Shown in pieces: positions 2,364-32,721 of a stretch of DNA of 36,287 nt. A program made the translations under genes and the position numbers. The notes under the pieces were generated by a model that did not search any database, was not told the DNA's origin, and saw only the letters and a program-made list of their open reading frames with translations. Every line of letters starts with the position of its first letter. Position 1 is the stretch's first letter. The stretch is taken from the NCBI GenBank assembly GCA_003252075.1, contig QKDO01000033.1, forward strand, positions 1 through 36,287, in the 5' to 3' direction. Origin of the DNA: Nitrospirota bacterium (GTDB taxonomy: Bacteria; Nitrospirota; Thermodesulfovibrionia; Thermodesulfovibrionales; UBA6898).

Positions 2364-2390
2364 AAATAATTGAAAAAGCCGGTGAGTTTC

Positions 2391-3692
2391 ATGATGGAGC
2401 AAGATAATTCTATGCAGGGTGCAACAAGAGGTGGTCAGGGCATCCATGTGGTGGCCAAGCCCATAGGGCCTGTCTGCAATCTGAACTGCGAATACTGTTT
2501 TTATCTCGAAAAACAGGCCCTCTTCGGTCCGGGCGAGCAGTACCGCATGTCCGATGAAGTCCTCTCGGCATTCATCACCAACTACATCACCTCCCAACCC
2601 ACCCCGGAAGTGGCCTTTGTCTGGCAGGGCGGTGAGCCGACACTCCTGGGAATAGATTTCTTCAGGAGGGTGGTCCAACTGGAGCTGCCCTTTACTCGCC
2701 TTAAAACGATCAGCAATTCCTTTCAGACAAATGGCACGCTGCTCACGGATGAGTGGTGCGCCTTTCTGAAGAAGCATAATTTCATGGTAGGCATAAGCCT
2801 CGACGGCCCAAGAGAGATCCATGACCGCTACCGCCGCGACCGGCAGGGTAAGGGGACCTTTGACCGTGCGATGCGGGGGCTGAGGCTCCTGCAGAAACAC
2901 AAGGTAGATTACAATGTGCTGGCCTGCGTTGCCCTTGAAACGGCCCGGCATCCGCTCGACGTATACCGCTTTTTCGGAAATGAGGGCGTCGAGTTCATCC
3001 AGTTTTCTCCGGTCGTGGAGCGCATGGCGGGTGCCTGCGGCGCGCGGACCGGCCTGCGCCTCGCCGGCCCTGCTTCGCTGGAGAGGGAAGAGGCGCAGAG
3101 CGAGGTCTTCCCCTGGTCAGTGCTCCCTGAGGAATATGGCGATTTCCTGATCGCCATCTACGAGGAATGGGTCCGCCATGACGTGGGCAAGGTCTTTGTC
3201 ATGAACTTTGAGTGGGCGCTCAATGCCTGGATCGGCAACCCCTCGCCGGTATGTATCCATGCCGAGCAATGCGGCAGATCTCTGGTGATTGAGCATAACG
3301 GTGATGTCTATGCCTGCGACCATTGCGTCTATCCCGAATACCGCCTCGGCAATGTTGTGAGTGACAGCCTGGCGGCTATGGCGGATCGGTCGCGGCAGTC
3401 GGGATTCGGCGTAACAAAAGAGACCGCCCTGCCACGCTGGTGCAGGGAATGCAAGGTCCTTGCGGCCTGCAGGGGAGGCTGCCCCAAACACCGTTTCGAG
3501 ATGAGCAATTACGGGGAGCCTGGCATGCAATATCTCTGTCCCGGGTACAGGAAGTTCTTTATGCATATCAGAAAATATTGTCACGCCATGACGCAATTGC
3601 TCGAAAACAATCTCCCGGTGTCATACGTGATGAAGGCGGCAAAAGGGCCGCTGGTCGTAAAGCTTGATGGAGTGAAAGAGGCAGACGAGTGA
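2391..3692 (+). CDS. Anaerobic sulfatase-maturating enzyme (radical SAM, SPASM)
   Basis: About 433 residues. The open frame reaches a TTG at 2370, but ATGs at 2391/2394 sit just behind GGTGAG and are better starts. The radical-SAM cluster motif CNLNCEYC (Cys29, 33, 36) binds the 4Fe-4S that cleaves S-adenosylmethionine. The C-terminal SPASM region has the expected auxiliary-cluster cysteines (ICIHAEQCG-like segment, YACDHC, WCREC, ACRGGCPKHRF, LCPGY). Such enzymes oxidise an active-site Cys or Ser of sulfatases to formylglycine without oxygen. No sulfatase lies in this window, so the substrate must be encoded elsewhere or be something else. The Asp of ACDH matches the proposed catalytic base of the family. 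The gene is divergent from vapBC module 1 and bracketed by module 2. Confidence 0.88.
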   Translation: MMEQDNSMQGATRGGQGIHVVAKPIGPVCNLNCEYCFYLEKQALFGPGEQYRMSDEVLSAFITNYITSQPTPEVAFVWQGGEPTLLGIDFFRRVVQLELPFTRLKTISNSFQTNGTLLTDEWCAFLKKHNFMVGISLDGPREIHDRYRRDRQGKGTFDRAMRGLRLLQKHKVDYNVLACVALETARHPLDVYRFFGNEGVEFIQFSPVVERMAGACGARTGLRLAGPASLEREEAQSEVFPWSVLPEEYGDFLIAIYEEWVRHDVGKVFVMNFEWALNAWIGNPSPVCIHAEQCGRSLVIEHNGDVYACDHCVYPEYRLGNVVSDSLAAMADRSRQSGFGVTKETALPRWCRECKVLAACRGGCPKHRFEMSNYGEPGMQYLCPGYRKFFMHIRKYCHAMTQLLENNLPVSYVMKAAKGPLVVKLDGVKEADE

Positions 3693-4526: not shown

Positions 4527-4804
4527 TTATGAGTGAGAGGAAAGGGGTCAAAGGGTCAAGGAGCCAAGTAAAAGGATGAAAGACAGAAGCCAGAGAAATA
4601 GCGGGTCAGGCGGTTTTGAGTTCTCACTCGGACCCTTAAACCCTTTTCCCCGCGAAGTTCACGCGACCCCCTCGAATCATGGGATACGAAAATCCGTGAG
4701 CCCGATTTTTCCATAGAGATGTGAGATATGAGATAATGGACCGAGGTGATACATGACGTGCTGTCGGGGAGTTTTGTGATAGGCATGTGCTTTCTGAGGA
4801 ATAT

Positions 4805-7399
4805 ATGAAATCAATCGATAAGGCAGGCATATCAAAGCTAAACAGGAAGCGATTTCAGAAGCTTATCCGTAGGGATAGGGTTTTCTATTTGAGACCGCTG
4901 CTTGCGACCGCGTTAGGCGTGCTTCTCGTATTATGCTCTTCCTTCGGTCATACCGCAGAACAAAAGGCCGTTGCGCCTCAGAAGACCGGCGCGCCAGAAG
5001 CAACGCAAAAAGTTGCGACTACTCCTGCTCCATCTGGCCCGGCAGCAATCCCGGTGGCGGATGTCGCGACCAAGGCAACTGAGGTAGCCAATCAGCTCCA
5101 GACCATTACGCAGAAGCTGGCCCCCAGTCCTCAGATAGAGACGATCCGGCAGCTGCTTCCTGATGTCAGCCTTCAGATTGATGAAGACCTGGCTGTAACA
5201 ACGAAGGTCCTTGAGGGGCTGCCGGCTCTCCCGACACTCCAGGCGCAACAGCAACTGTGGCAGCAGATCCAGGCAAAGACGACGGGCTGGCTTGCGGAGC
5301 TGACAAAACAGTCAAATGCTCTGCAAGTGGTGCTTGACCACCTGTCCGGCCTGCAAGATATCTGGGTGATGACCCTCAAGGCTGCTCAGGATTCGAAGGC
5401 CCCGGGACCGACACTTCAGCAGGTCAATGAGACGCTTGCCGCAATTCGGGAGGCCCAGATACCCCTGAAAGCCCAGCTTACGTCTGTGCTCGATCTCCAG
5501 AGCAGCGTGTCAGACGAAGTGGCGAAATGCGGGACTGTGTTGGCAAAGATTGACCAGGTGCAGAAGAAGTCGATGAGCGAAATTTTGGTGCAGGACAGTC
5601 TGCCGATTGTGAATCCTGCGCTCTGGGCTGGCTCACTGAGCGGATTGCCGGAACGCATCAGAAGCGACGGCGCTGCATACGTGAAGACTGTCAACAAGTA
5701 CTTCCGGGATGCATCGGAAGGCATGCCGCTGCATGGCAAGTTTCTTGTGATACTGACACTCCTGTTTCTTGCGGCCCGGTACCAGGCCCGTAAGATGACA
5801 GCCGCTGGTACAACGTTTTCGTCTGCCATCAAAGTTCTTGATCACCCTATTAGCGCTGCCCTGACCGTAACACTGCTCTTGGTCACGTCGCCGTACTGGC
5901 CGCTGCCCTCGGTTTTACAAAGGACTTATCAGTTCCTTGCGTTTGAGCCGATGATAATCCTGATCCGGCCGAATATTCCAAGACGTCTGGTCCCCGGTCT
6001 CTATCTGCTTTGGCTTCTTGTCGGAATCGATGCAGTGCGGGAAGTTTTTTCAGGCGAGCTCCTGATCGGACAGATTTTACTGATGATCGAGTCCCTCGGA
6101 GGAATCGTGACGACTTTCTGGTTCCTTCGGAGTCTCCGGCCCGTCCTGGGAGAAACGTTTGGGTCCAGCCGTCTGCGCATTCATCAGTCAGGGTCTGTCC
6201 TCGTTCTGCTGATCCTGTTTTCCGGTCTTGCGGCGGCTGCTATGGGATATATGCGCCTTGCCCGCCTGATGACACCAGGGATCATTGCCGGCGGTATGCT
6301 GGCGGTGGCCCTATACGTATCTCTGCGCGTTTTCATTTCTATCGTTGATATCGCTTTCCATGTCTGGCCGCTCCGGACACTCAGGATGGTACAGAACAAT
6401 CGTGAACTGCTGGAAAGACGGCTCCATCTTTTGCTGGTCTGGGCTGCAATTGTGGCATGGACGGTACGCTTTCTGAGTTATACCGGCTTCTTGCAGCCGG
6501 TTCTGTCTTTCGGAATAACCGTTCTTCATGCAACATACGAACGCGGTGAATTCAGCATTTCGGTCGGCGGGGTCCTGGAATTTTTCATCACAATATGGGC
6601 GGCTTATTTGCTGTCGGCCCTTCTGCGCTTCGTGCTGCGGGAGGACGTATATCCCCGGATCAGGGTCGCGCCCGGCAAGTCCTACGCTGTTTCGAGCCTG
6701 CTGCATTACATTATCATTGCCCTCGGGTTCATAGCAGGTATAGCGGTATTAGGGATCAATCTTACGAAGCTGACTGTCCTGACCGGTGCCCTCGGCGTCG
6801 GCATCGGCTTCGGCCTCCAAAGTGTGGTGAACAACTTTGTCTCCGGTCTGATACTCCTTTTTGAGCGGCCGATACAGGTAGGCGACACGGTAGAGGTGGG
6901 CGACCTTCTGGGAAAGGTCCGAAGAATAGGAATCCGGGCAAGTACGGTGCACACAAGGCAGGGCGCCGATATTATCGTCCCCAATTCTCAGTTGATCACC
7001 GAGAAGGTGACCAACTGGACCCTTAGTGACATGTTGAGGCGCATCGACCTGCCGGTCGGCGTCAGTTACAGCTCCGTGCCGAAGGACGTGATAAAGGTGA
7101 TCGAGATGGTTGCAATCGATAACCCGCATATATTGGCCGATCCGCCGCCCCAGGTCCTCTTCACAGGGTATGGTGACAGCTCTATCAACTTTGAGCTGAG
7201 GGCGTGGACCGACCGGTTTGACGACTGGCCCCAGATTCGGAGCGAATTGGCCACGGCGGTCTTTGAGGCGGTGCGTGCTGCCGGCATGTCATTCCCCTTC
7301 CCGCAGCGCGAGGTTCGGATATTGGGAGATGCTGAAGGCCGGCCAGCCACGGCCCCGGTCGATCCGGAGGCGGATGGTCGTGATGAAGCAAAAAAATAG
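4805..7399 (+). CDS. Large MscS-family mechanosensitive channel
   Basis: 864 residues from the ATG at 4805, chosen because CTGAGGAA lies just upstream; an in-frame GTG at 4787 has no such site. There is a basic N-terminus, then a signal/anchor segment (RPLLATALGVLLVLCSS), and an extended Gln/Leu-rich periplasmic helical domain to about residue 310. Several membrane helices follow (about 315-620), and then the MscS core (about 627-840). The pore helix GALGVGIGFGLQSVVNNF, the FERPIQVGDTVEV beta-domain entry and VPNSQLITEKVTNWT are diagnostic. This is the domain plan of MscK/MscM/YnaI-type large channels that release solutes on hypo-osmotic shock. It is probably followed in the same transcript by the lipoprotein gene at 7549. 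Confidence 0.9.
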   Translation: MKSIDKAGISKLNRKRFQKLIRRDRVFYLRPLLATALGVLLVLCSSFGHTAEQKAVAPQKTGAPEATQKVATTPAPSGPAAIPVADVATKATEVANQLQTITQKLAPSPQIETIRQLLPDVSLQIDEDLAVTTKVLEGLPALPTLQAQQQLWQQIQAKTTGWLAELTKQSNALQVVLDHLSGLQDIWVMTLKAAQDSKAPGPTLQQVNETLAAIREAQIPLKAQLTSVLDLQSSVSDEVAKCGTVLAKIDQVQKKSMSEILVQDSLPIVNPALWAGSLSGLPERIRSDGAAYVKTVNKYFRDASEGMPLHGKFLVILTLLFLAARYQARKMTAAGTTFSSAIKVLDHPISAALTVTLLLVTSPYWPLPSVLQRTYQFLAFEPMIILIRPNIPRRLVPGLYLLWLLVGIDAVREVFSGELLIGQILLMIESLGGIVTTFWFLRSLRPVLGETFGSSRLRIHQSGSVLVLLILFSGLAAAAMGYMRLARLMTPGIIAGGMLAVALYVSLRVFISIVDIAFHVWPLRTLRMVQNNRELLERRLHLLLVWAAIVAWTVRFLSYTGFLQPVLSFGITVLHATYERGEFSISVGGVLEFFITIWAAYLLSALLRFVLREDVYPRIRVAPGKSYAVSSLLHYIIIALGFIAGIAVLGINLTKLTVLTGALGVGIGFGLQSVVNNFVSGLILLFERPIQVGDTVEVGDLLGKVRRIGIRASTVHTRQGADIIVPNSQLITEKVTNWTLSDMLRRIDLPVGVSYSSVPKDVIKVIEMVAIDNPHILADPPPQVLFTGYGDSSINFELRAWTDRFDDWPQIRSELATAVFEAVRAAGMSFPFPQREVRILGDAEGRPATAPVDPEADGRDEAKK

Positions 7400-18488: not shown

Positions 18489-20783
18489 ATGATGAATGGC
18501 TATAATAGTTATTATGCACTATCGGAGCGCAGGAAGACTTGTTTGGGAGAAATCCGTGGAATGCTGAAGATAGCGCATATTCTCCTGCTCCTGCTCCTCT
18601 TCCTCTCCCCTGCAGGGACATCTTCTTCGGACGCTGAAACTCCGGCAGGAGAGGCGCCGAAACGTCCGAAGATCGGCGTCGTCTTCGGCGGGGGTGGTGC
18701 AAAGGGTGCAGCCCATATCGGGGTACTGAAGGTGCTTGAGGAGCAGAAGATACCTGTAGACTACATAGCAGGCACCAGCATGGGCGCCATCGTAGGTGCC
18801 CTGTATGCATCAGGACTTTCTGCTGCCGAACTCGAAAAAGTGATTACCACGATCGACTGGAAAGATGTCTTTAAGGGTGATCCCGACCGCCGTGATGTCG
18901 ACTACCGCAGGAAGCGGGAAGATTACGAGCATCTTACCGCGCTGCAGGTTGGTATCAGGGACGGCAAGGTCGTTACGCCCAAGGGCCTTGTCAAGGACCA
19001 GAAGGTGAATGTGCTTTTTGAGATGCTCATGCTCCACACTTCGAGCATCAATGATTTCGACAAACTTCCCATACCCTACCGGGCTGTTGCTGCAGATCTG
19101 GAGACGGGTGAGATGGTAGTGATCAAAGGCGGAAGGCTTGCCGATGCTGCGCGGGCCAGCATGTCTGTGCCGGGCGCATTCCCGCCGGTGGAAGTGGATG
19201 GCAGGCTGCTGATCGACGGAGGAATTGTACGGAACCTGCCTGTTGACATTGTGCGGGAAATGGGGGCCGATATTATCATCTGCATTGACGTCGACAAACC
19301 CCTTCCTACCCGCAAGGAAATTGCTGGAAGCCTTTCAGTGCTGAACCAGATGATAGATATCATGATGAAGAAAAACGTGAGGGAGCAGGTCAAGACCCTC
19401 GGACCGCAGGATGTCTATATCAACCCTGACCTGGGAGAACTGGGCTCCACAGACTTTGATAAGGCCGCAGAGATAGCCCGCCACGGGGAAGAAGCAGCAC
19501 GGGAAAAGATAGAAAGCCTGAAGAGATACTCCGTTTCCGATGCTGAGTATGCCGCATTTACCGCCCGTCATCACCGCGATCTGGTACAGGAGGTGAAGAT
19601 CGCATCCGTGAAGGTCGAAGTGGAGGGAAAGTCAAAGATCTCAACAGAGGTTGTTTCGAGCAGGCTTTCGATCAAACCAGGTGACACCGTTGATGTTGAA
19701 AAGCTGAAGGAGGAGGCCGGTATTATTTACGGCACCGGTGATTTCGAGCGTGTAGACCTGAACGTAAAAGAGGAGAAGGATGGGTACGAACTCCTCGTGA
19801 AGGCGAAGGAAAAGTCCTGGGGTCCGAATTACCTGCGTTTCGGCGTAGCCCTTGAAAGCGATTTCGAGGGTCAGAGCAGCTACAACATTCTTGTGGACTA
19901 TACGCGGCGATGGATAAACAGCCTGGGCGCTGAATGGAAGACCCAGGTCAACCTGGGCTCACCGAGCGGAATTTACACCGAATTTTATCAGCCGCTGTCG
20001 GTGGAACGGCTCTTTTTTGTATCCCCCTGGGCTGAGTGGAGGCAAAATATCTTTGATGTCTATGACGGAAAGAAGATTGAGGCATCATACCGTATAACTC
20101 GTTATGAAGGCGGGATCGATCTCGGCATCCAGCCGTGGATGTACGGGGAAGCAAGGGTAGGCCTGCAATTCGGCAAGTTCAGGGCGAGTCCGAAGAGCGG
20201 CAAAGTTGATCTTCCGGAGGACCATATAACCCGCGGTGCCGTGCGTGCCGCAGGGCGGCTTGATCAGTTGGACAACGTGAATTTTCCCAATGAGGGGTAT
20301 CTGGCGCAAGCTCAGCTTCTCTCTTCTCTGAAAGCCCTAGGCTCGGATGACGAATACAATAAGATAGAGGGAACATTCACCGGAGCATATACCTTTTGGA
20401 AACAGACGGTTCTCTTGAGCCTTTCAGCCGGAGCTCACCTGGGAAATGATCTCCCGTTCTATGATCAGGTTAGCCTCGGCGGGCTTTTTAACCTCTCCGG
20501 ACTCCGTAGGAATCAGCTTCTCGGGCAGAGTATGGCGATAGGGAAAGTGATCTCATACCACAAAATCGGTGAGTCTTTTATCGGGGACCTTTATTTCGGG
20601 GGGTCACTGGAGACCGGCAACGTATGGAGGCCGGATGAGAAACAGTTCGACCTCAGCAATCTCCGGCTGGCCGGGAGTATATTCCTCGGGTACGATACGA
20701 TCTTCGGTCCCTTATACCTCGCCTTTGGCCATGCCGACGGAGGCTACAATGCAGGCTACTTCTATCTCGGCCGGCCGTTCTGA
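18489..20783 (+). CDS. Patatin-like phospholipase fused to POTRA and outer-membrane barrel
   Basis: 764 residues. An N-terminal segment is followed by a hydrophobic signal (about 25-45) and the patatin domain (about 60-340). It has the oxyanion loop GGGGAKG (67-73), the nucleophile motif GTSMG with Ser97, and DGG with Asp243 completing the Ser-Asp dyad. A POTRA-like domain (about 370-450, with VKIASVKVEVEGKSKISTE and KPGDTVDVEKLKEEAG) leads to a barrel of about 300 residues that ends in Phe (YLGRPF). This is the PlpD-type plan (type V secretion-like), in which the lipase is placed at or beyond the outer membrane. It starts immediately behind the YiiX-like gene. Confidence 0.92.
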   Translation: MMNGYNSYYALSERRKTCLGEIRGMLKIAHILLLLLLFLSPAGTSSSDAETPAGEAPKRPKIGVVFGGGGAKGAAHIGVLKVLEEQKIPVDYIAGTSMGAIVGALYASGLSAAELEKVITTIDWKDVFKGDPDRRDVDYRRKREDYEHLTALQVGIRDGKVVTPKGLVKDQKVNVLFEMLMLHTSSINDFDKLPIPYRAVAADLETGEMVVIKGGRLADAARASMSVPGAFPPVEVDGRLLIDGGIVRNLPVDIVREMGADIIICIDVDKPLPTRKEIAGSLSVLNQMIDIMMKKNVREQVKTLGPQDVYINPDLGELGSTDFDKAAEIARHGEEAAREKIESLKRYSVSDAEYAAFTARHHRDLVQEVKIASVKVEVEGKSKISTEVVSSRLSIKPGDTVDVEKLKEEAGIIYGTGDFERVDLNVKEEKDGYELLVKAKEKSWGPNYLRFGVALESDFEGQSSYNILVDYTRRWINSLGAEWKTQVNLGSPSGIYTEFYQPLSVERLFFVSPWAEWRQNIFDVYDGKKIEASYRITRYEGGIDLGIQPWMYGEARVGLQFGKFRASPKSGKVDLPEDHITRGAVRAAGRLDQLDNVNFPNEGYLAQAQLLSSLKALGSDDEYNKIEGTFTGAYTFWKQTVLLSLSAGAHLGNDLPFYDQVSLGGLFNLSGLRRNQLLGQSMAIGKVISYHKIGESFIGDLYFGGSLETGNVWRPDEKQFDLSNLRLAGSIFLGYDTIFGPLYLAFGHADGGYNAGYFYLGRPF

Positions 20784-23426: not shown

Positions 23427-25937
23427 TCACTCCCCGTTCTTTTCCGTCTCAGGATTCACGACCTTAACTTCGATCGGTTTCGCTGAGTCCAGGTGAAGGT
23501 CTCGCTGCGGGAAGGCGATAACTATGCCGGCCTTGTCCAGAAGTTCATTGATGGCATGACGAATATCGCTCAAGGCGATGCGATTGTCCCTGTTCGAGAT
23601 TAATTCCAGCCAGAAATAGACGGTGAATATGAGCGCGCTGTCACCGAACTCCTCGAAAATAATTGTCGGCGGCGGATCCGTAAGCACCCGCGCATGAGTC
23701 TCGACGGCCTTCATGATAATGTCTGCTGTTTTACGGGTCGGCGAGCCATAGGCGACACCGACAGAAATCTTGTACCGTATCCTGCGGTCGGTCAGTGTCC
23801 AGTTCGTCACTTTCTGCTGCAGGAACTGGCTGTTCGGCACCATCAATTCAATACCGTCAAAACGTTGAATACGGGAATTTCTCATGCCGACGTCGGTCAC
23901 CCGACCGCCTTCGCCGTCCACTTCCACGATATCACCGACCTTGATGGTACGGTCAAAAAGAAGAATAAGTCCGCTGATGAAATTGTTGATCAGGTGCTGG
24001 GCACCAAAACCGATGCCGATGGCAAGTGCACCTCCCAGGAAGGCGAAGACTGCAAGGGGGATATTGACCGAAACGAGCGAGAAAACAAAAACTCCGATGA
24101 ACATCATGATAAAAATGACCTTGCCGATCTGCTCTGCTCGGGACGAGCTCTGTCCGAGCTTCTTGGTCAAGCCCCACTGAATAACCCTGCCGATCTTCCC
24201 CGCGATCCAGGTGCCGACCAGAAGAATGAAGAGGGCCTTAATGGCTTTTCCGATGGTGACGCTTACGGGTTTGACGATACTCCGGTCATCAACAATGGTT
24301 GTCTCTTCCGCAACATAGAGTTCGGTGTTCCAGATACTCTGAACGAAGGAAGCTACGATCTGGAGACGTTCCCTCACACGGCTGCCGATTGAGGCCTCTT
24401 TAATCCGCTGCGACAGCTCATCGTTCAGGCGATTGATCAGCCGCTCGATGTTGCCTATGCCCTCGATAAGCCGCAACGTGATGTCTTGCCGCTCTTCATA
24501 TGCCGTTAGGATGAGCTGCTGCGTCTGCCGTTCCTTCTGCGATTCATTGGCAGCAGCAATTTTTTCTTTCTGGTTCCTGACAAGGTTCAACCAATTTGAG
24601 AGTGTCGACTCAGCATACTTCTTGATCAGTTTCAGGTTCTCCAGGGTTTGACGCGTTTCAGCGAGCTTCTGACGCATCTCGCTCAGCGGTGGTTTCTTCG
24701 TGAGCCAAAAGCGGTCCTGCCATATCTTCTCGGCAGTACTGACCATCTGTAACTGGCCCTTCAGGACGGTTATCTTAAACTGCGTACTCTCCAGAAAGAC
24801 CTGCTCGGCATCATAATTGAGTTTAAAGATGTTGAGTTTTTCATATGGTGCAGTCTCTTGTTTCAGTTCTGGTGGGCGTTTGAAGACCTGGTACCATTTC
24901 TTCCCGGAGCCCTGTGACGGAGGCGCTTGAGGTGCCGTGAGGGGGAGACGGCTCATTTCTCCGAGAATGTGATCGAGTTTTGCCTGCGCATTGGCGGCGA
25001 CATTCTTTTCTTTTAATAATTCCGCTTCAATATCCCTTCGCCGGCTATCAAGTTCCTGGAGTTTCTTGTCGAGGTCCTCTTCGGACAGCGGAGACGAGAC
25101 CTCGGCTGTTTTGAGCTTCTCTTCAAGGAATGCCAGATACGAACGTTTTCCCTGGATTGCTGTTTCATAGACGAGTCGCTGTAATTCCGCAAGCACCAGT
25201 CTGGCTTTGTTCAGTTCATTGCCAAGCCTGGCGAGTTCAACGAGCCATATGCTTCTCTTCTCCTGCGGCTTACCCGTGTCCCTCGTGCGTTCCTCCTCAG
25301 CCAGTCGAAGGTCCTTGCTCGATCTTTTCAGATCTCGGTCGTACTGCGTACGTGCCTTATTCGCAAGAGAATGTCTGATGGTGAATGAATCAAAGGCGAG
25401 CCGTTCGACAAGAAGAGCGTCGCGGATTGCATCAAGGAAAAAGATGGGATAGGGAGGTTTTTGGCTAAAGCCCTTCCAGGATGCCTGTTCAGCAGCATCG
25501 GCAGCATTATCTTTTCGTATCGTCTTCAGCTCTGTCAGGATATCTATCTGTTTCTCGAGGGTGATCGTAAGGTCGCTCATTACTCTCTCGCGCTGCTTCA
25601 GCTCTTTAGGCTGTATGCCCACGGCAAGACCGCTCTCGACTGTCACTCCGGATCCGACGCTACCACTTTCCCTGCGTATCTTATCCAGCCGCGCTTTGAT
25701 GCGGTCGATTTCTCTGTCGATCTCCTCATCAGACCCCGGAAGGCCGGTAGGTACTGATTTTCCCGAAGCACTCTCTTTTTGACTAAAGACTTTGGACAAT
25801 TGCCCTGCAGCAAAAGGAGACCAGATGAGCAGGACTGCAGAGACCATGCAGGCGATCAAAAAGAAGCGAAGGCCCGAGGCTGTAATCCGGTTTCTTGCCG
25901 GGTAGCAGCAGGCAAATGTTCGCGGATGACGGATCAT
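23427..25937 (-). CDS. Large MscS-family mechanosensitive channel with coiled-coil periplasmic domain
   Basis: 836 residues. A signal/anchor helix (FFLIACMVSAVLLIWSPFAAG, about 26-46) precedes a very long periplasmic domain (about 50-570) that is rich in Glu, Lys, Arg and Gln and reads as coiled coil. A few membrane helices and the MscS core follow (about 575-800): GGALAIGIGFGAQHLINNFISG as pore helix, FDRTIKVGDIVEV and VPNSQFLQQKVTNWT. Its periplasmic part differs from that of the channel at 4805, so the two are not recent duplicates. The first residues after the ATG are unusual (IRHPRTFACCYPARNR), and a start further in is possible. Confidence 0.88.
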   Translation of the reverse strand: MIRHPRTFACCYPARNRITASGLRFFLIACMVSAVLLIWSPFAAGQLSKVFSQKESASGKSVPTGLPGSDEEIDREIDRIKARLDKIRRESGSVGSGVTVESGLAVGIQPKELKQRERVMSDLTITLEKQIDILTELKTIRKDNAADAAEQASWKGFSQKPPYPIFFLDAIRDALLVERLAFDSFTIRHSLANKARTQYDRDLKRSSKDLRLAEEERTRDTGKPQEKRSIWLVELARLGNELNKARLVLAELQRLVYETAIQGKRSYLAFLEEKLKTAEVSSPLSEEDLDKKLQELDSRRRDIEAELLKEKNVAANAQAKLDHILGEMSRLPLTAPQAPPSQGSGKKWYQVFKRPPELKQETAPYEKLNIFKLNYDAEQVFLESTQFKITVLKGQLQMVSTAEKIWQDRFWLTKKPPLSEMRQKLAETRQTLENLKLIKKYAESTLSNWLNLVRNQKEKIAAANESQKERQTQQLILTAYEERQDITLRLIEGIGNIERLINRLNDELSQRIKEASIGSRVRERLQIVASFVQSIWNTELYVAEETTIVDDRSIVKPVSVTIGKAIKALFILLVGTWIAGKIGRVIQWGLTKKLGQSSSRAEQIGKVIFIMMFIGVFVFSLVSVNIPLAVFAFLGGALAIGIGFGAQHLINNFISGLILLFDRTIKVGDIVEVDGEGGRVTDVGMRNSRIQRFDGIELMVPNSQFLQQKVTNWTLTDRRIRYKISVGVAYGSPTRKTADIIMKAVETHARVLTDPPPTIIFEEFGDSALIFTVYFWLELISNRDNRIALSDIRHAINELLDKAGIVIAFPQRDLHLDSAKPIEVKVVNPETEKNGE

Positions 25938-26638
25938 GGTTTTTTCACGGTATCCGGCTTTCCCATAGATTAGACATCAGTATATCATGTTACTCGATGT
26001 TCTTGAGTGTTTCTCCCTCCTCTTCAGCAGGGGCGCCGTTGATTATGTATATTCGCTTGGGGACGGAATACTGCTGTCATCTGGCAGCCTCATGTGATGC
26101 GCTGAAGATGTCGTGATATTAGGGAGTGTCATGGTGATTTTATTTGAGGGTTTCTTTGCCCAAAACCTGACAGCAGCCGAATGCCGCTCGCGAAGAGCGT
26201 ATCAAGACAGTAACTGTTATGATTTCCGAGGTCCTGCCTTTTCCTCCGCTGGGTTTTACTGCAGCTCCTGCCGTTGAGGGCGTGGTGTATCGTTGTTCGG
26301 ATTTGAAGGATGCTGCAGGCCGGATATTGCGAAGGATGCGATTATCGCTGTCGATTCAGCGTATCGGAGCCTCAATGGAAGGGAGGAGCTCATGGTCACG
26401 CTCCTCGACGAAACGCTTGGGAACTATCTTCTGTTTTTCTTCTTCTGAAGCTAGGTATGACTCACTATAAACATTGCGGATTAATCGACGTACCTGCGGG
26501 GTTTATGCGGTTGTTCATTCCTGGCTTTGCAGTATAACTATTTCTTGAAAATATTCTTTGAAAAATAATGGGTTATATATTGACAGTTATAGGTTTTATT
26601 TCATATTATGGAAGCTAAATAAATTATGGAGGGATACT
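25938..26638 (+). other. 701-base intergenic stretch with one promoter and a possible gene relic
   Basis: Lies between the divergent MscS and cytochrome genes. The right end carries a good sigma70 promoter (26580-26609). The middle holds a stop-to-stop frame (26278-26448) whose reading SAYRSLNGREELMVTLLDETLGNYLL looks like the core of a hotdog-fold acyl-CoA thioesterase, but it is too short and too poorly supported to call a gene. No tRNA, riboswitch or transposon end was recognised. Confidence 0.4.
26580..26609 (+). promoter_or_regulatory. Sigma70-type promoter of the electron-conduit operon
   Basis: TTGACA (26580-26585) and TATTAT (26604-26609) are 18 bases apart, giving +1 near 26616. The untranslated leader to the ATG at 26639 is about 23 bases and carries the GGAGGG ribosome site (26628-26633). 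The surrounding 80 bases are strongly AT-rich. Confidence 0.7.
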
Positions 26639-27637
26639 ATGGTATTAGCTAAGAGAGTTCTCTTGTTGTGTGCCCTCTTTCCAGTCATGTTTACGGCCTG
26701 TGAGTCACTGAGAGCGTCAAAGCCCATTATTCCCCTTCGAGAATATGAAAAAATGATCGCCGGAAGACTTGACGCAAATTATGTCGGAACGTTGAACTGC
26801 CTCTCCGCATGTCATTATCATGACAAGATCAAACAGGACTTCGATGCGAGCACCATGGGGGTACAGCTTTCAAAGAAGTCAGGCATGCCCCTGGTCAATT
26901 GCGAATCGTGCCACGGTCCGGGAAGTCTTGCTATTGAGGGGATAACCCCGGAAAAGGTGGAGGCCGATGCCAAGGCCGGCATACGAACGGAATGCAATTA
27001 CAAGACCTTTATCGACATCAAGAATATCCCGGCACAGGCGCAGTCGCTTATCTGCCTGAAATGCCATACGGCAAACGCCACATTTAATCTCCATGACTGG
27101 AATGCGGGGAGCCACTCGGTGAACGATGTGTCCTGCTCTGATTGCCATAATGTCCATGCAGGTTCTGACCTCAAGGTGAAACCGCGGGATACGCTGGAAA
27201 TGTGCTATAAATGCCACCAGGAAGCAAAGGCTGAGTTTTCCCTGCCCAGTCACCACGCTGTCCCGGAGAAGAGGATCTTCTGCACGGACTGTCATGATCC
27301 CCATGGAACGTTTACGGAAAAGCTACTGAGGAAGGCGACGCTCAAGGACACCTGCGTGCAGTGCCATAGCGAAAAAGAGGGTCCCTTTGTCTTCGAACAC
27401 GCGGACAATATGGATGACTGCAGAAACTGCCATAACGCGCACGGTTCGGTAAACAACTATCTCCTCACGGTGCAGGTGCCGTTTCTCTGCCTCCAGTGCC
27501 ATACCGGACACAGGACGGACAGTCAGGAGGCGGCTGAGGGCAAGGGCGCATTTTATACCAGATGCACGGATTGCCATTCACAGATCCACGGATCAGACCT
27601 TCCCTCTGCAAGCGGCACGGGAAGGTTTACACACTAG
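26639..27637 (+). CDS. Ten-haem c-type cytochrome, DmsE/MtrA-like lipoprotein
   Basis: 332 residues from the ATG at 26639 (GGAGGG five bases upstream). A signal peptide ends in a slightly unusual lipobox FTAC (Cys21), so the protein is probably tethered to a membrane. Nine CXXCH haem sites are visible (first Cys at 88, 139, 166, 189, 215, 239, 261, 284, 309), and one further site, CLSACH at 54-59, has three instead of two residues between the cysteines. Ten haems in about 330 residues, with no barrel or catalytic domain, is the plan of MtrA/DmsE/PioA cytochromes that carry electrons through an outer-membrane porin. The porin gene follows after 11 bases. Whether electrons flow out or in is not visible. 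Confidence 0.9.
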   Translation: MVLAKRVLLLCALFPVMFTACESLRASKPIIPLREYEKMIAGRLDANYVGTLNCLSACHYHDKIKQDFDASTMGVQLSKKSGMPLVNCESCHGPGSLAIEGITPEKVEADAKAGIRTECNYKTFIDIKNIPAQAQSLICLKCHTANATFNLHDWNAGSHSVNDVSCSDCHNVHAGSDLKVKPRDTLEMCYKCHQEAKAEFSLPSHHAVPEKRIFCTDCHDPHGTFTEKLLRKATLKDTCVQCHSEKEGPFVFEHADNMDDCRNCHNAHGSVNNYLLTVQVPFLCLQCHTGHRTDSQEAAEGKGAFYTRCTDCHSQIHGSDLPSASGTGRFTH

Positions 27638-27648
27638 GGGGTATGGGC

Positions 27649-29688
27649 ATGAAAAATAAGATCATATACGGTCTGATACTTACGGTGGGCATCCTCGTCT
27701 CTGCTGCGTGGGCTGAAGAAACGGCCAAGGAAGATGCAGCGGCGAGCAAAGAGAATGAAGTCATGGAAGCTGACCACGAAGAATATGTCTTCCCTTTAAT
27801 CAAGCCCGAGCTTTCGCTTTCCGGCGGTTACCGCTATGTGCATCTCAACGGCTCAACTCGGGTAGATGAGTACGAGTATCTGCACAATTCCTGGATGTTT
27901 GGCGGCGAACTCCGGGCGTTCAAATTCCCCCACCGCTTCCATCTCGAAATTGACTTCAAAGACAGGAAGGATTATTTCGGCGATGTTGGATATGCCTATG
28001 AGGACATCATTGTGTTCAGAGGGATAAACCGGACCCTGTTTCACAATCTGGACAATATTCTTCTCATAGATCTTGATCCAACTACGCCTTCTCCCGGGGT
28101 CGATGTGCGGGATGCAGGAGAGACATACGGGGTGAAAACAAGCATCAGCAATGCCTTCTTGAGACTGAAGGCGCCCACATATCCGTTTCATGTCTATTTT
28201 GAAGGCATGCAGGTCCGCAAGGATGGCGAGCAGCAGCAACGAGATATCATCGGTGCCGGATATTTTAATAACATCGTGCGGACGTCCCAAAAGCGCGATG
28301 TTGAAACTAAGGCCAATACGCTGACCGTCGGAACAAACGGCCATTTTGGCCCCATTGAAGTTGACTATTCACACAGTGAGAAGAAATTTACGGTGGATGA
28401 GGATAATGTTCTGTACGACACCTATACGCCTGCGGGATTCGGCCCGCCGCTTCCTCCACCCCTTGGGTCTGTCCGCAACGGAGGTGTATATCCGCATAAC
28501 CTTATTCCTGAACAGAAGAGTTCAACGGATACAATCAAGGTGCATACGTCGTATACGGGCGCCCTGGTTGCCGCGACGACCTTTACCTGGATGGATAAGG
28601 AGAACAGGGACAGCGGGGCAAAGGGGACCTACTTTATCGGCTCTGGAAATGTCAGCTGGATAGCATCGCGCGACCTTGCCTTTTTCGTCAAGTACCGGTA
28701 TGCGGAATCGCATATGAATACGCCTGACAGCGTGGAGTTTGCAGATGTCTGCAGTTCCTCCTTGAATGCTGCCGGCAACTATGAGTGCGTTATTCGGGAG
28801 GCGATTTCGAAACGGGTGGGAACTGCATCGATTTTAGTGCGCTACCGGTTGACCTCAGGGATCGTCTTGAAGGGAGAGTATGCCCATGAGACGGTTGACA
28901 GAGAGGCGGCAGACCAGTGGTTCATGCCCCCTTCGAGTCAGAAGAACACGGTAACGCTTTCAACGGATATCAGGCTTTCAAAGCAGCTGAAGACGAACAT
29001 TAAGTTTATACACAAGAGCATCCAGAACCCGGCTACCAATATTGAACCGGATCGGGCCAATGAAGGCCACGTATCGGTGACCTGGACGCCGGCGCCGTGG
29101 ATTACGACACTGGCGAGCTTTCGCCTGGCCAGGGAACATCGGAATAATCTGCAGTTCCTGTTCGATAATGAACCTGTGGACAGCCCTGATGAGCGGAAAA
29201 ACAGATGGGAGCGTTTTTTCGGAAGCGTGAGCCTTTTTCCGGTGAAGAACCTGACAGCTACGCTGAGCTTCTTCTATATGCACAACAAACAGACGGAAGA
29301 TCTTGCCTACTCTGACCCTGTGCCCGAACTCCATTTCGATTCCTCCGTAAAGAACACAAGCATGGTGAAGAACGTCTCCCTTGATCTGCGGTACCTGCTT
29401 TCAAAGCATGTGGCCCTGAATGCCGGTGTGAGCAATACGGACAGCAACGGCAAGTTCCATCCTACCGATCCGAACCTTCTGATACCGGTGTCCATTGCTT
29501 CGTTCTCCGAGTTGAAGATGCGGGAGACCATATACAGCGTGGGAAGCGACATCGACCTGACGGGAGGCTTCATGCTCGGCACGCATTATAAATATGCCCG
29601 GCTGAAGGACCTTGCCGATAATCCTTATGATGATATTCAGAACGGCGAGGCGCATATTGTAATGCTTTCGCTGACCAAGAGGTGGTAA
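27649..29688 (+). CDS. MtrB/PioB-like outer-membrane beta-barrel of the electron conduit
   Basis: 679 residues from the ATG at 27649, seven bases behind AGGGGG. The signal peptide is MKNKIIYGLILTVGILVSAAWA-EE. After an acidic linker, a large barrel begins at LSLSGGYRYVHLNGSTRVDEYEYL and is built of about 26-28 alternating amphipathic strands, ending in Trp (LTKRW). MtrB-like features are GGELRAFKFPHRFHLEIDFKDRKDYFGDVGY, TYTPAGFGPPLPPPLG and HSVxFxKK-like strand repeats. The N-terminal CXXC pair known in Shewanella MtrB is absent. With the upstream cytochrome it would form a porin-cytochrome conduit across the outer membrane. No cell-surface MtrC-like cytochrome lies in the window. Confidence 0.85.
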   Translation: MKNKIIYGLILTVGILVSAAWAEETAKEDAAASKENEVMEADHEEYVFPLIKPELSLSGGYRYVHLNGSTRVDEYEYLHNSWMFGGELRAFKFPHRFHLEIDFKDRKDYFGDVGYAYEDIIVFRGINRTLFHNLDNILLIDLDPTTPSPGVDVRDAGETYGVKTSISNAFLRLKAPTYPFHVYFEGMQVRKDGEQQQRDIIGAGYFNNIVRTSQKRDVETKANTLTVGTNGHFGPIEVDYSHSEKKFTVDEDNVLYDTYTPAGFGPPLPPPLGSVRNGGVYPHNLIPEQKSSTDTIKVHTSYTGALVAATTFTWMDKENRDSGAKGTYFIGSGNVSWIASRDLAFFVKYRYAESHMNTPDSVEFADVCSSSLNAAGNYECVIREAISKRVGTASILVRYRLTSGIVLKGEYAHETVDREAADQWFMPPSSQKNTVTLSTDIRLSKQLKTNIKFIHKSIQNPATNIEPDRANEGHVSVTWTPAPWITTLASFRLAREHRNNLQFLFDNEPVDSPDERKNRWERFFGSVSLFPVKNLTATLSFFYMHNKQTEDLAYSDPVPELHFDSSVKNTSMVKNVSLDLRYLLSKHVALNAGVSNTDSNGKFHPTDPNLLIPVSIASFSELKMRETIYSVGSDIDLTGGFMLGTHYKYARLKDLADNPYDDIQNGEAHIVMLSLTKRW

Positions 29689-29689
29689 G

Positions 29690-30640
29690 GTGACAGAGGA
29701 CATGCCAAGGACCAGGTGGGCACTGGTATTCGTCATGTTATGCAGTCTAGCCGCCGCCTGGGTTTTTCCTGCAGAAGCGGCCGCAGCCGGGAAGACGATC
29801 GGTGTGGTGATGACCGGCAATATCCCGTACTATAAGGATATTCATAAGGCTTTTTCCGACGGCCTTGCAGCCGAAGGTCTCGGTCCGGAAAGTGTCGAGG
29901 TCGTGCTTCAGACGCCCGCGCCTGAGACGATGTCATGGACGAATTCCATCCGCAAACTTGTAGCTATCGGCGTCAATGTCATTGTTGCCTACGGCGCTCC
30001 TGTAACGATGTCCGCGATGGCAGAGACCTCTGATGTGCCCATTGTCTTCGCAGGGGTCTATGACCCGAAGGAACTTGGCATAGTAGGGAAGAACGCTACA
30101 GGTATCAGTTCTACGGTGCCGGTTGCGAGCCTGGTAAAGAACCTTAAGGCCATCTCAAGCTTTTCCAACCTTGGCGTCGTATACAGTACGTCCGAGAAAG
30201 ACACGGTGCTGCAGGCAAATGATGCTGCACGTTTGGAGGCCACCTACAATTACCGTTCAACGAAATTCAACGTCAAAAGGCCGGAGGATGTCGCAAAGAT
30301 ATCCAATGTCGATGCGCTCTTTCTTACCACGGGATGTGCTGCAATGCATTGCGTGACGAATATCATCAGCACGGTACGGAAGGCGAAGATCCCTACAGCC
30401 ACAACCATAGGGGGGGGAGAACAGAGCGGCATCATCCTGACGCTCTCGGCGAATCCCCAGGAGCAGGGCAGGGAGGCGGCCAAAATGACCGCACAGGTGG
30501 TGAAAGGTGAGAACCCGTCATCCATCGCCATAGTTCATCCGAAGAAGATAGACCTCATCATAAACCTGAAAGAGGCTACCGATATGGGGCTGAAGGTTCC
30601 CTTCGATCTCCTGACCTCTGCGACAAGGGTCATAAAATGA
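29690..30640 (+). CDS. ABC-type substrate-binding protein (PF04392 family)
   Basis: 316 residues, starting at GTG 29690, one base behind the barrel's TAA, with AGAGGTGG upstream; an ATG at 29702 is possible. The signal peptide ([27 protein letters not shown]) precedes a periplasmic-binding fold of two Rossmann-like lobes: [49 protein letters not shown], and [32 protein letters not shown]. The family resembles the TrpX-like binders of uncharacterised ABC systems. There is no permease or ATPase here; instead its stop overlaps the chemoreceptor start, so I infer it presents a ligand to that receptor. Confidence 0.85.
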
Positions 30641-32721
30641 TGCAGCTGCTTTCCCGCATGAATCTGCAGAAAAAGGCGATGACCCTTCTTGCCGCCATAT
30701 TGTTCCTTATCTTTGGTCTCAATACCATGGTCCTGACCGGGGTGGCCTCCCGGAAGTATAAACAGGCAATGCTGGCGAAGAGCTCCGCTATCGGGGAGGG
30801 CATGCGGAAGGACCTCGGCAAGGCGGTGAGCCTCGGTATCCCCATCGAGTCCCTGGATGGAGTCAACGAGAAGCTTGCCGAACTGGTCAGCAGGGACAAG
30901 GGTATCGGCTATGCCATGGTGATGGACGTGAACGGCAAGGTTCTTTATCACGACGAGGCTGATCAGGTGGGCAGGGAGCTGAAGAACGACATAACGGCGA
31001 AGGTTCTTGCATCAACGGAGAATCTTGTCCAGAATGCTGGTGATTATATTGATCTCTCTTTTCCCCTCATGACCGCTGAAAACAAGGCGGCCGGATTTCT
31101 CCGGGTAGGGGTCTATACCCGGGAGATTAATTCCCAGTTGTACGAGCTTCTTTTCTGGGCCCTTGGCATATCTGTGTTCTGCTTTCTCACGTCACTTATC
31201 CTCTTTTATGTCGCCATTGCGAAGTTCATCACCCGGCCTATCGTGGAAATGGAAAAGACCGCAGACCGTATCGCTGGAGGAGACCTGACCGCGGAGCTGA
31301 CTGTGAAGGGAGATGATGAGGTCGCTGCTCTGCAGAAAGCCGTTAATCGGATGGCGTTCAACCTGAAGGATATGCTTTCAAAGGTCCTCAACATCACCAA
31401 CGGCGTTACGACCGTGACCTCGAATATCGCATCTGCATCTCAGGGTGTACTGACGATAGCTGATGTTCAGAAGAAGGCGATCGACGAAACGGCGCTGGCG
31501 ATAGAGCAGACAGACTCTTCCATAGCGCAGGTGTCACTCAGTGCGGAGAGCCTTTCGGGGTCTGCGACCAATGCTACATCTTCTGTTCATGAACTGTCCG
31601 CTTCTATCGAAAAAGTCTCTGAGCATACCAACGTGTTCAGCGAGACAGCCCATGAGACCGCGTCTTCGATCGAAGAGATGGTCTCGACTATCAAGTCCAT
31701 AGCGGAGAGCCTGGATACTCTTTCGCGGTCTGCGGAGGCGATCGCCTCTTCGATCGATGAGGTGAACGCCACAACGAAAAATATCGATGAGCGCGCCCAT
31801 GAGTCGGTCAAGCTTGCTGAAACTGTCATGGATAAGGCCTCAAAGAAAGGTATGCAGTCCGCCCAGGCTTCCCTGCAGGGTATGGAGAATATCAAGAAGG
31901 GTGTTGTGGATCTGTCGGATATTATCAACAATCTCGGCAAGCGGGCTGAGGATATCGGCAAGATCCTGAACGTGATCGATGACGTGGCTGACCAGACAAA
32001 TCTCCTTGCTATCAATGCTGCCATTCTCGCATCAAAGGCAGGAGAACACGGAAAGGGCTTTTCTGTTGTTGCGGACGAGATCAAGAACCTTGCGGAACGC
32101 ACGTCATTCTCGACAAAGGAGATCGCCGAGCTGATCCGGGCCGTGCAGGACGCGACCCGGACAAGCATCCATATGGCCTCAGAAGGCGTGAGTACGGTTG
32201 ACAAAGGCCTGCTTCTGGTCACCGATGTAAACGGTGCGCTTACGGAGATCGTCGAGAGCTCAAAGGCATCGACGGAGATGGCACGTGCCATACAGCGAGC
32301 CACCGAAGAAGAGGCGATGGCGATCAAACAGATAACCGCTTCGGTCGAGAAAATGACGGAGCAGACCGAGAATATCTCGCGTGCCATACAGGAACAGAGC
32401 AGGGGGAGCCGCTTCATCATCGAGGCGACGGAGCGGGTAAAGGAAATGTCGCATCAGGTCAAAGGCGCTACGGCCGAGCAGAAGGACAGAAGCAAGGACA
32501 TCGCCGTTGTCATCGAAAACGTGACGACCCAATTGCTGCATATTGCAGATGCGATCAGCAGGCAGAAGAGCACCAGCACCGAGATGGTAAGTTCCATGGA
32601 GAAGATACGGAACACAACGGGCCGGCTTATCAGTTCATCGCACGATATGAATGCGGTGGTGAGTTCGCTCAAGGAGGACGCCTTTAACCTCCTCGTCGAA
32701 CTGAAGAAGTTCAAGGTCTGA
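30637..32721 (+). CDS. Methyl-accepting chemotaxis protein with long signalling helices
   Basis: 694 residues; ATG at 30637 overlaps the binding-protein stop (ATGA). TM1 is at about 14-36, a periplasmic sensor of about 130 residues (38-168, sCache-like with [16 protein letters not shown] and [20 protein letters not shown]), TM2 at about 171-195, HAMP at about 196-250, then a long helical signalling hairpin. The hairpin tip reads [30 protein letters not shown] (residues 445-474). The tip Ile459-Glu470 replaces the usual NAAxEAARAGE with [11 protein letters not shown]. The arms are over 200 residues each, longer than the common 44-helix class. No CheA, CheW, CheB or CheR gene is nearby, nor a C-terminal NWETF tether. 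Confidence 0.92.

Follow-up and report, generated by a model that had tools for sequence, protein, structure and literature searches.

A predicted outer-membrane electron conduit encoded with a binding protein and a chemoreceptor in Nitrospirota

In Shewanella, the MtrAB and DmsE-DmsF systems each combine a decahaem periplasmic cytochrome with a large barrel. The closest named cytochrome-porin pair to the one described here is OmcK-GSU2204 of Geobacter (families NF041028/NF041027), OmcK being GSU2203 (PMC4070692). On the sensing side, congregation of Shewanella at minerals needs the Cache chemoreceptor (MCP) SO_2240 together with mtrBC/omcA (PMC5789149). In Geobacter, esnABCD are needed on electrodes; G. 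sulfurreducens GSU2222-2221-2220 encode EsnC (a CheA), an ATPase and EsnB (a CheW), and esnB and esnC are required for growth on electrodes, not on Fe(III) oxide (PMC5585712). Since OmcK is GSU2203, the omcK and esn sets are close by locus number. Receptors activated by substrate-binding proteins (SBPs) also have precedent (PMC11113362). The parts are known; what we did not find in the literature searched (open-licence papers) is their union, above all the placement of conduit genes within a chemosensory operon.

Genes for a conduit, an SBP and an MCP

The window, a stretch of 36,287 nucleotides from a Nitrospirota bacterium, carries the following features.

26580..26609, + strand: sigma70-type promoter (TTGACA-18-TATTAT, 11/12 matches)
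26639..27637, + strand: periplasmic decahaem c-type cytochrome, MtrA/DmsE/OmcK(GSU2203)-like lipoprotein (from TIGR03508, haem motifs and a match to MtrA)
27649..29688, + strand: predicted outer-membrane beta-barrel of the MtrB/GSU2204 kind (from sub-threshold profiles and an AlphaFold model)
29690..30640, + strand: periplasmic type I SBP, PF04392, TrpX fold, GTG start (from Pfam and a model)
30637..32721, + strand: chemoreceptor, sCache_3_2 - HAMP - long signalling hairpin, tip [13 protein letters not shown] (from Pfam and tip alignment)

The order on the plus strand is thus decahaem cytochrome, MtrB-like barrel, PF04392 SBP and MCP. All four ORFs proposed by a sequence-only reading of this DNA were found again, with the same gaps of 11, 1 and -4 bases (ORF coordinates), the last being an overlap (ATGA) of the MCP with the SBP gene. 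The sigma70 promoter that it had placed before the operon was also recovered, and both hexamers align in five related loci (L004, L005, L006, L007 and L018, the last with the version TTGACT...TATCAT), within upstream DNA that is otherwise largely divergent. Across the region, promoter-like matches (10, against 5.7 +/- 2.5 after shuffling) and terminator-like matches (9, against 6.1 +/- 2.9) are near the shuffled numbers, and every terminator-like match within the operon lies on the minus strand. An Rfam search of the region returned no element and no upstream riboswitch.

The cytochrome had been described as a ten-haem MtrA/DmsE-like lipoprotein. It scores 255 bits against the DmsE family TIGR03508 (cut-off 192) and 228 bits against the GSU2203 family, below the cut-off of 325, and it matches MtrA in the solved Mtr complex (6r2q_A) with an E value of 6e-43. 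Nine CXXCH motifs and one CX3CH motif (CLSACH, residue 54) were counted, along with a lipobox-like Cys21. The DmsE family, the ten sites and the lipobox-like cysteine therefore stand, while ten haems hold if the CX3CH motif binds haem. Our set of relatives comprises 73 cytochrome-bearing loci from one scan of genome contigs. The 9+1 pattern is present in 71 of them, including all complete homologues from Nitrospirota to Geobacterales, and the two exceptions are L068, which is a fragment, and L072, whose ORF is broken. The nearest record to the window is a Nitrospiraceae MAG (L004), 98% identical in the cytochrome.

The barrel falls below the MtrB/PioB cut-offs in sequence profiles (PF11854, 21.9 against 23 bits; TIGR03509, 24.4 against 240 bits), but the best match of its AlphaFold model (pLDDT 86) is by far MtrB (6r2q_B; TM 0.70/0.73, Z 26.4 over 573 residues, the next entry having a Z of 16.2). 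The predicted fold is thus of the MtrB type, far ahead of other barrels, as the sequence-only reading had supposed. Encoded together across an 11-base gap, cytochrome and barrel form a porin-cytochrome conduit by gene content, and the porin follows the cytochrome in 72 of the 73 related loci, the contig of L045 ending before that point. The product of the operon is a predicted outer-membrane electron conduit, a decahaem cytochrome inside an MtrB-like barrel. Compared with MtrAB and DmsE-DmsF, its first haem site is CX3CH, its barrel has no N-terminal cysteine pair (the only two cysteines, at 368 and 380, are both away from the N-terminus), MtrC is missing from the operon, and an SBP and an MCP are added.

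The third product scores 92.4 bits against PF04392 (cut-off 25.9) and 112 bits against the TrpX family NF041285, far below its cut-off of 390. Its model (pLDDT 92) superposes on 3lft with TM 0.85/0.91, the TrpX fold of a clam-shell binder, so that both the Pfam score and the predicted type I SBP fold bear out the proposed PF04392-type binding protein. The fourth product is the expected chemoreceptor, with MCPsignal (144.8 bits), HAMP (60.4 bits) and a periplasmic sCache_3_2 sensor (45.7 bits) all found by Pfam. A class 40H assignment for this MCP was dropped; with approximately 224 residues to either side of its tip, it fits 64H on a purely arithmetical basis. We also set aside the idea that it is the sole MCP of its genome: no other was found in the assembly, but the bin is fragmented, and other genomes, including those of the nearest relatives, yield more MCP matches.

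Elsewhere in the window we noted a radical SAM/SPASM protein beside small ORFs with no Pfam matches (2370-3692), two large mechanosensitive-channel (MscK-like) genes (4787-7399 and 23427-25937) and a patatin-like phospholipase fused to POTRA and Omp85 barrel domains (18489-20783).

Gene neighbourhood in relatives

Among the 66 loci with enough DNA past the porin, a PF04392 SBP comes right after it in 60, in both Nitrospirota and Geobacterales, with gaps of -26 to +76 bases; the SBP is missing from six loci that do have the conduit. The gene after the SBP varies. It belongs to the window-type MCP family in 26 loci, 16 of which share the 4-base overlap, so the four-gene order sought in relatives recurs. 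In eight loci it is a PhnD-like SBP; six of these add a histidine kinase, and two of the six a sigma54-type regulator as well. Each of the six alternative kinases has a CXXCH in its sensor region (residue 89, ahead of the HAMP domain), a feature that would be expected if the sensor binds haem. An MtrC/MtrF-like cytochrome (12-13 CXXCH) followed by a different MCP occupies the position in six loci, and a CheY-like protein in 12 (Geobacterales and relatives). None of these four kinds is next in six more loci, two of which (L027 and L029) have a receptor of the window kind upstream of the cytochrome. In a Desulfobacterales MAG (L045:3798-6853), a different MCP ends 2 bp before the same decahaem cytochrome.

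The OmcK-GSU2204-type loci of Geobacterales resemble the window in having a PF04392 SBP next. Unlike the window, they have a CheY-like protein after it, an ABC-type ATPase before the cytochrome and no MCP in the operon. In all, 14 loci of Geobacterales and related groups (L058-L075) have this ATPase gene a short way ahead of the cytochrome, with no permease recognised there.

Because its neighbours recur in dozens of genomes, chance can be ruled out for the gene neighbourhood. Coupling of conduit, SBP and transducer is strongly supported by these gene orders: the order is conserved, the transducer is swapped for other signalling parts, and in six genomes the conduit has che genes around it.

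Chemosensory genes around the conduit

These six genomes are all from Nitrospirota, and in each the conduit, SBP and MCP lie among che genes. CheA lies upstream of the conduit and in the same direction in five of the six (L030, L032, L037, L039 and L040); in L038, CheW is downstream and the contig starts too late to show an upstream CheA. Read gene by gene (Pfam, with conduit and SBP located by tblastn), L039 encodes DUF4388, CheY, CheA, an AAA ATPase, CheW, an MtrC-like cytochrome, the decahaem cytochrome, the porin, the SBP, an MCP, a second MCP, CheW, HEAT repeats and CheR. L037 (L121) has the same order over the stretch read. CheA proteins 44-46% identical to that of L039 occur without the conduit in other Nitrospirota, Geotalea and Geomonas; their sets keep the CheY-CheA-ATPase order, and CheW genes follow in most of them. 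One of these Nitrospirota, L116, is the nearest relative of the window, and carries a CheA-ATPase-CheW set.

The CheA-ATPase-CheW order is common to the che-linked Nitrospirota operons and the Geobacter Esn network (EsnA-D), and gene order and names suggest that the Nitrospirota set is of the Esn type. The receptors differ: EsnA is an MCP of class 40H with a cytoplasmic GAF domain and no SBP, encoded elsewhere, whereas the MCP of the window is longer and of the Cache type. In the SBP-linked receptors of the window family, and likewise in the MCPs that come second in the che operons, the usual tip NAAIEAAR is replaced by NAAILA(S/A/T)(K/Q) or close variants, a non-standard tip also present in L116 and L117. 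By this common tip they look like one subfamily, which likely signals to the CheA type with the Esn-like gene order.

A che cluster of Esn-like order was not found in the window's own assembly (96% complete). An earlier statement that this assembly has no CheA was withdrawn, the C-terminus of one having been found at the end of contig C59. This fragment, the only CheA, belongs to another cluster, beside CheB, CheX and CheY genes; one CheR is encoded elsewhere, apart from it.

The divergence of the SBP tracks that of its receptor more tightly than the divergence of either tracks the cytochrome (r 0.95 for SBP and MCP sensor domain, 0.84 once the cytochrome is removed, against 0.59 for SBP and porin). 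The value for the cytoplasmic part of the MCP (r 0.81) is nearly as high as for the sensor domain, so that this co-divergence fits a pair and is no proof of docking.

A proposed sensory front end and its alternatives

Beyond the genes and their order, the predicted folds, the promoter conservation, the recurrence and the che linkage, which are directly seen or computed, we think it reasonably probable that the SBP, having no transporter partner in sight, signals into a chemosensory pathway tuned to the substrate of the conduit, the operon being a conduit with its own sensory front end. The SBP would close on a small periplasmic ligand, tied to the acceptor, donor or shuttle of the conduit, and the ligand-bound SBP may then dock on the Cache domain of the MCP, which would set the activity of a CheA-CheW pathway. 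In relatives, this pathway would be the DUF4388-CheY-CheA-ATPase-CheW system with the EsnC/EsnB gene order of Geobacter. A type I SBP signals to a membrane receptor in LuxP-LuxQ and XylFII-LytS, both among the fold matches of the SBP; here the presumed partner is the MCP in the conduit operon. This reading is supported by the porin-SBP adjacency across two phyla, by the variation of the transducer while conduit and SBP stay, by the che genes around the conduit, by the co-divergence of SBP and MCP sensor domain, by the CXXCH of the alternative kinases, and by MCP genes beside the conduit in several arrangements (after the SBP, after the MtrC-like cytochrome, or upstream of the cytochrome). Against it stand the six loci that lack the SBP, the failure to find an Esn-like che cluster in the window's assembly, and the Geobacterales, where the neighbour of the SBP is a CheY-like protein instead of an MCP.

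The sequence-only reading had the cell steering towards, or sensing, the substrate of the conduit. Coupling of the conduit to an SBP and a signal transducer is upheld; steering finds little encouragement. No flagellin was found in the window's genome or in genomes G001-G003, and of the genomes with the receptor version several have one but most gave none. Flagellar steering is therefore not the general output, and pili, attachment or matrix are likelier. In the window's genome, which has type IV pilus-type ATPases, the output is probably not flagellar swimming but type IV pili, attachment to surfaces or matrix; such outputs have been suggested for other Geobacter chemosensory clusters (PMC2577667). 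The congregation of Shewanella resembles the pairing seen here in that a Cache MCP and a conduit are both needed to gather at insoluble acceptors (PMC5789149), but its genes are unlinked, it proceeds by flagellar swimming, and no SBP is reported.

It is unlikely that the arrangement reflects transcriptional convenience, with the SBP and MCP sensing an unrelated nutrient plentiful during conduit use. The SBP does share its fold with amino-acid binders of known structure, among them 3lft with Trp; however, most conduit SBPs (GISSKVP) have a serine in place of the GxSD aspartate common to 3lft and 3lkv, so that an amino-acid ligand of the TrpX kind would be less likely, and the conduit-SBP linkage spans two phyla while the transducer changes, with che genes flanking the conduit in six genomes. 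Another improbable reading makes the conduit chiefly a sense organ, the SBP informing a dedicated chemosensory array of the electron flow or redox state at the inner end of the conduit.

We give little credence to the SBP as the binding protein of a scattered ABC importer, shared by the MCP as ribose- and maltose-binding proteins are. PF04392 proteins are annotated as ABC binding proteins, and the ATPase directly upstream of the cytochrome in Geobacterales speaks for it, yet no permease was recognised beside the SBP in the related loci read, and a search of the window's genome for the family PF06541 found no member. The earlier claim of no ABC partner accordingly holds for the window, where neither permease nor ATPase is found in the operon or nearby, and beside the SBP in the loci read; it does not extend to the Geobacterales ATPase. 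Equally doubtful is the idea that the SBP belongs to the conduit itself or helps to assemble it, for instance as a periplasmic partner of the cytochrome, and that an MCP came later to read it: the SBP is the most constant third gene, even with no MCP after, but it has a clam-shell binder fold, and a paralogue in the same genome (38% identical) sits beside a PhnD-like SBP and a histidine kinase with no conduit. This second PF04392 SBP lies on contig C129 of genome G000 (L083:3545-7337), where it forms, with the PhnD-like SBP and a histidine kinase that has CLSCH in its sensor region, a conduit-free copy of the alternative PhnD-like SBP/histidine kinase module.

Recognition of a solid electron acceptor by electroactive bacteria has yet to be explained, and in Geobacter and Shewanella the sensing and conduit genes were found unlinked. 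Here they form one unit, in some genomes together with the signalling kinase, which names candidate sensors and makes the question testable. Were the conduit itself the sense organ, the cell would recognise and colonise conductive or redox-active surfaces.
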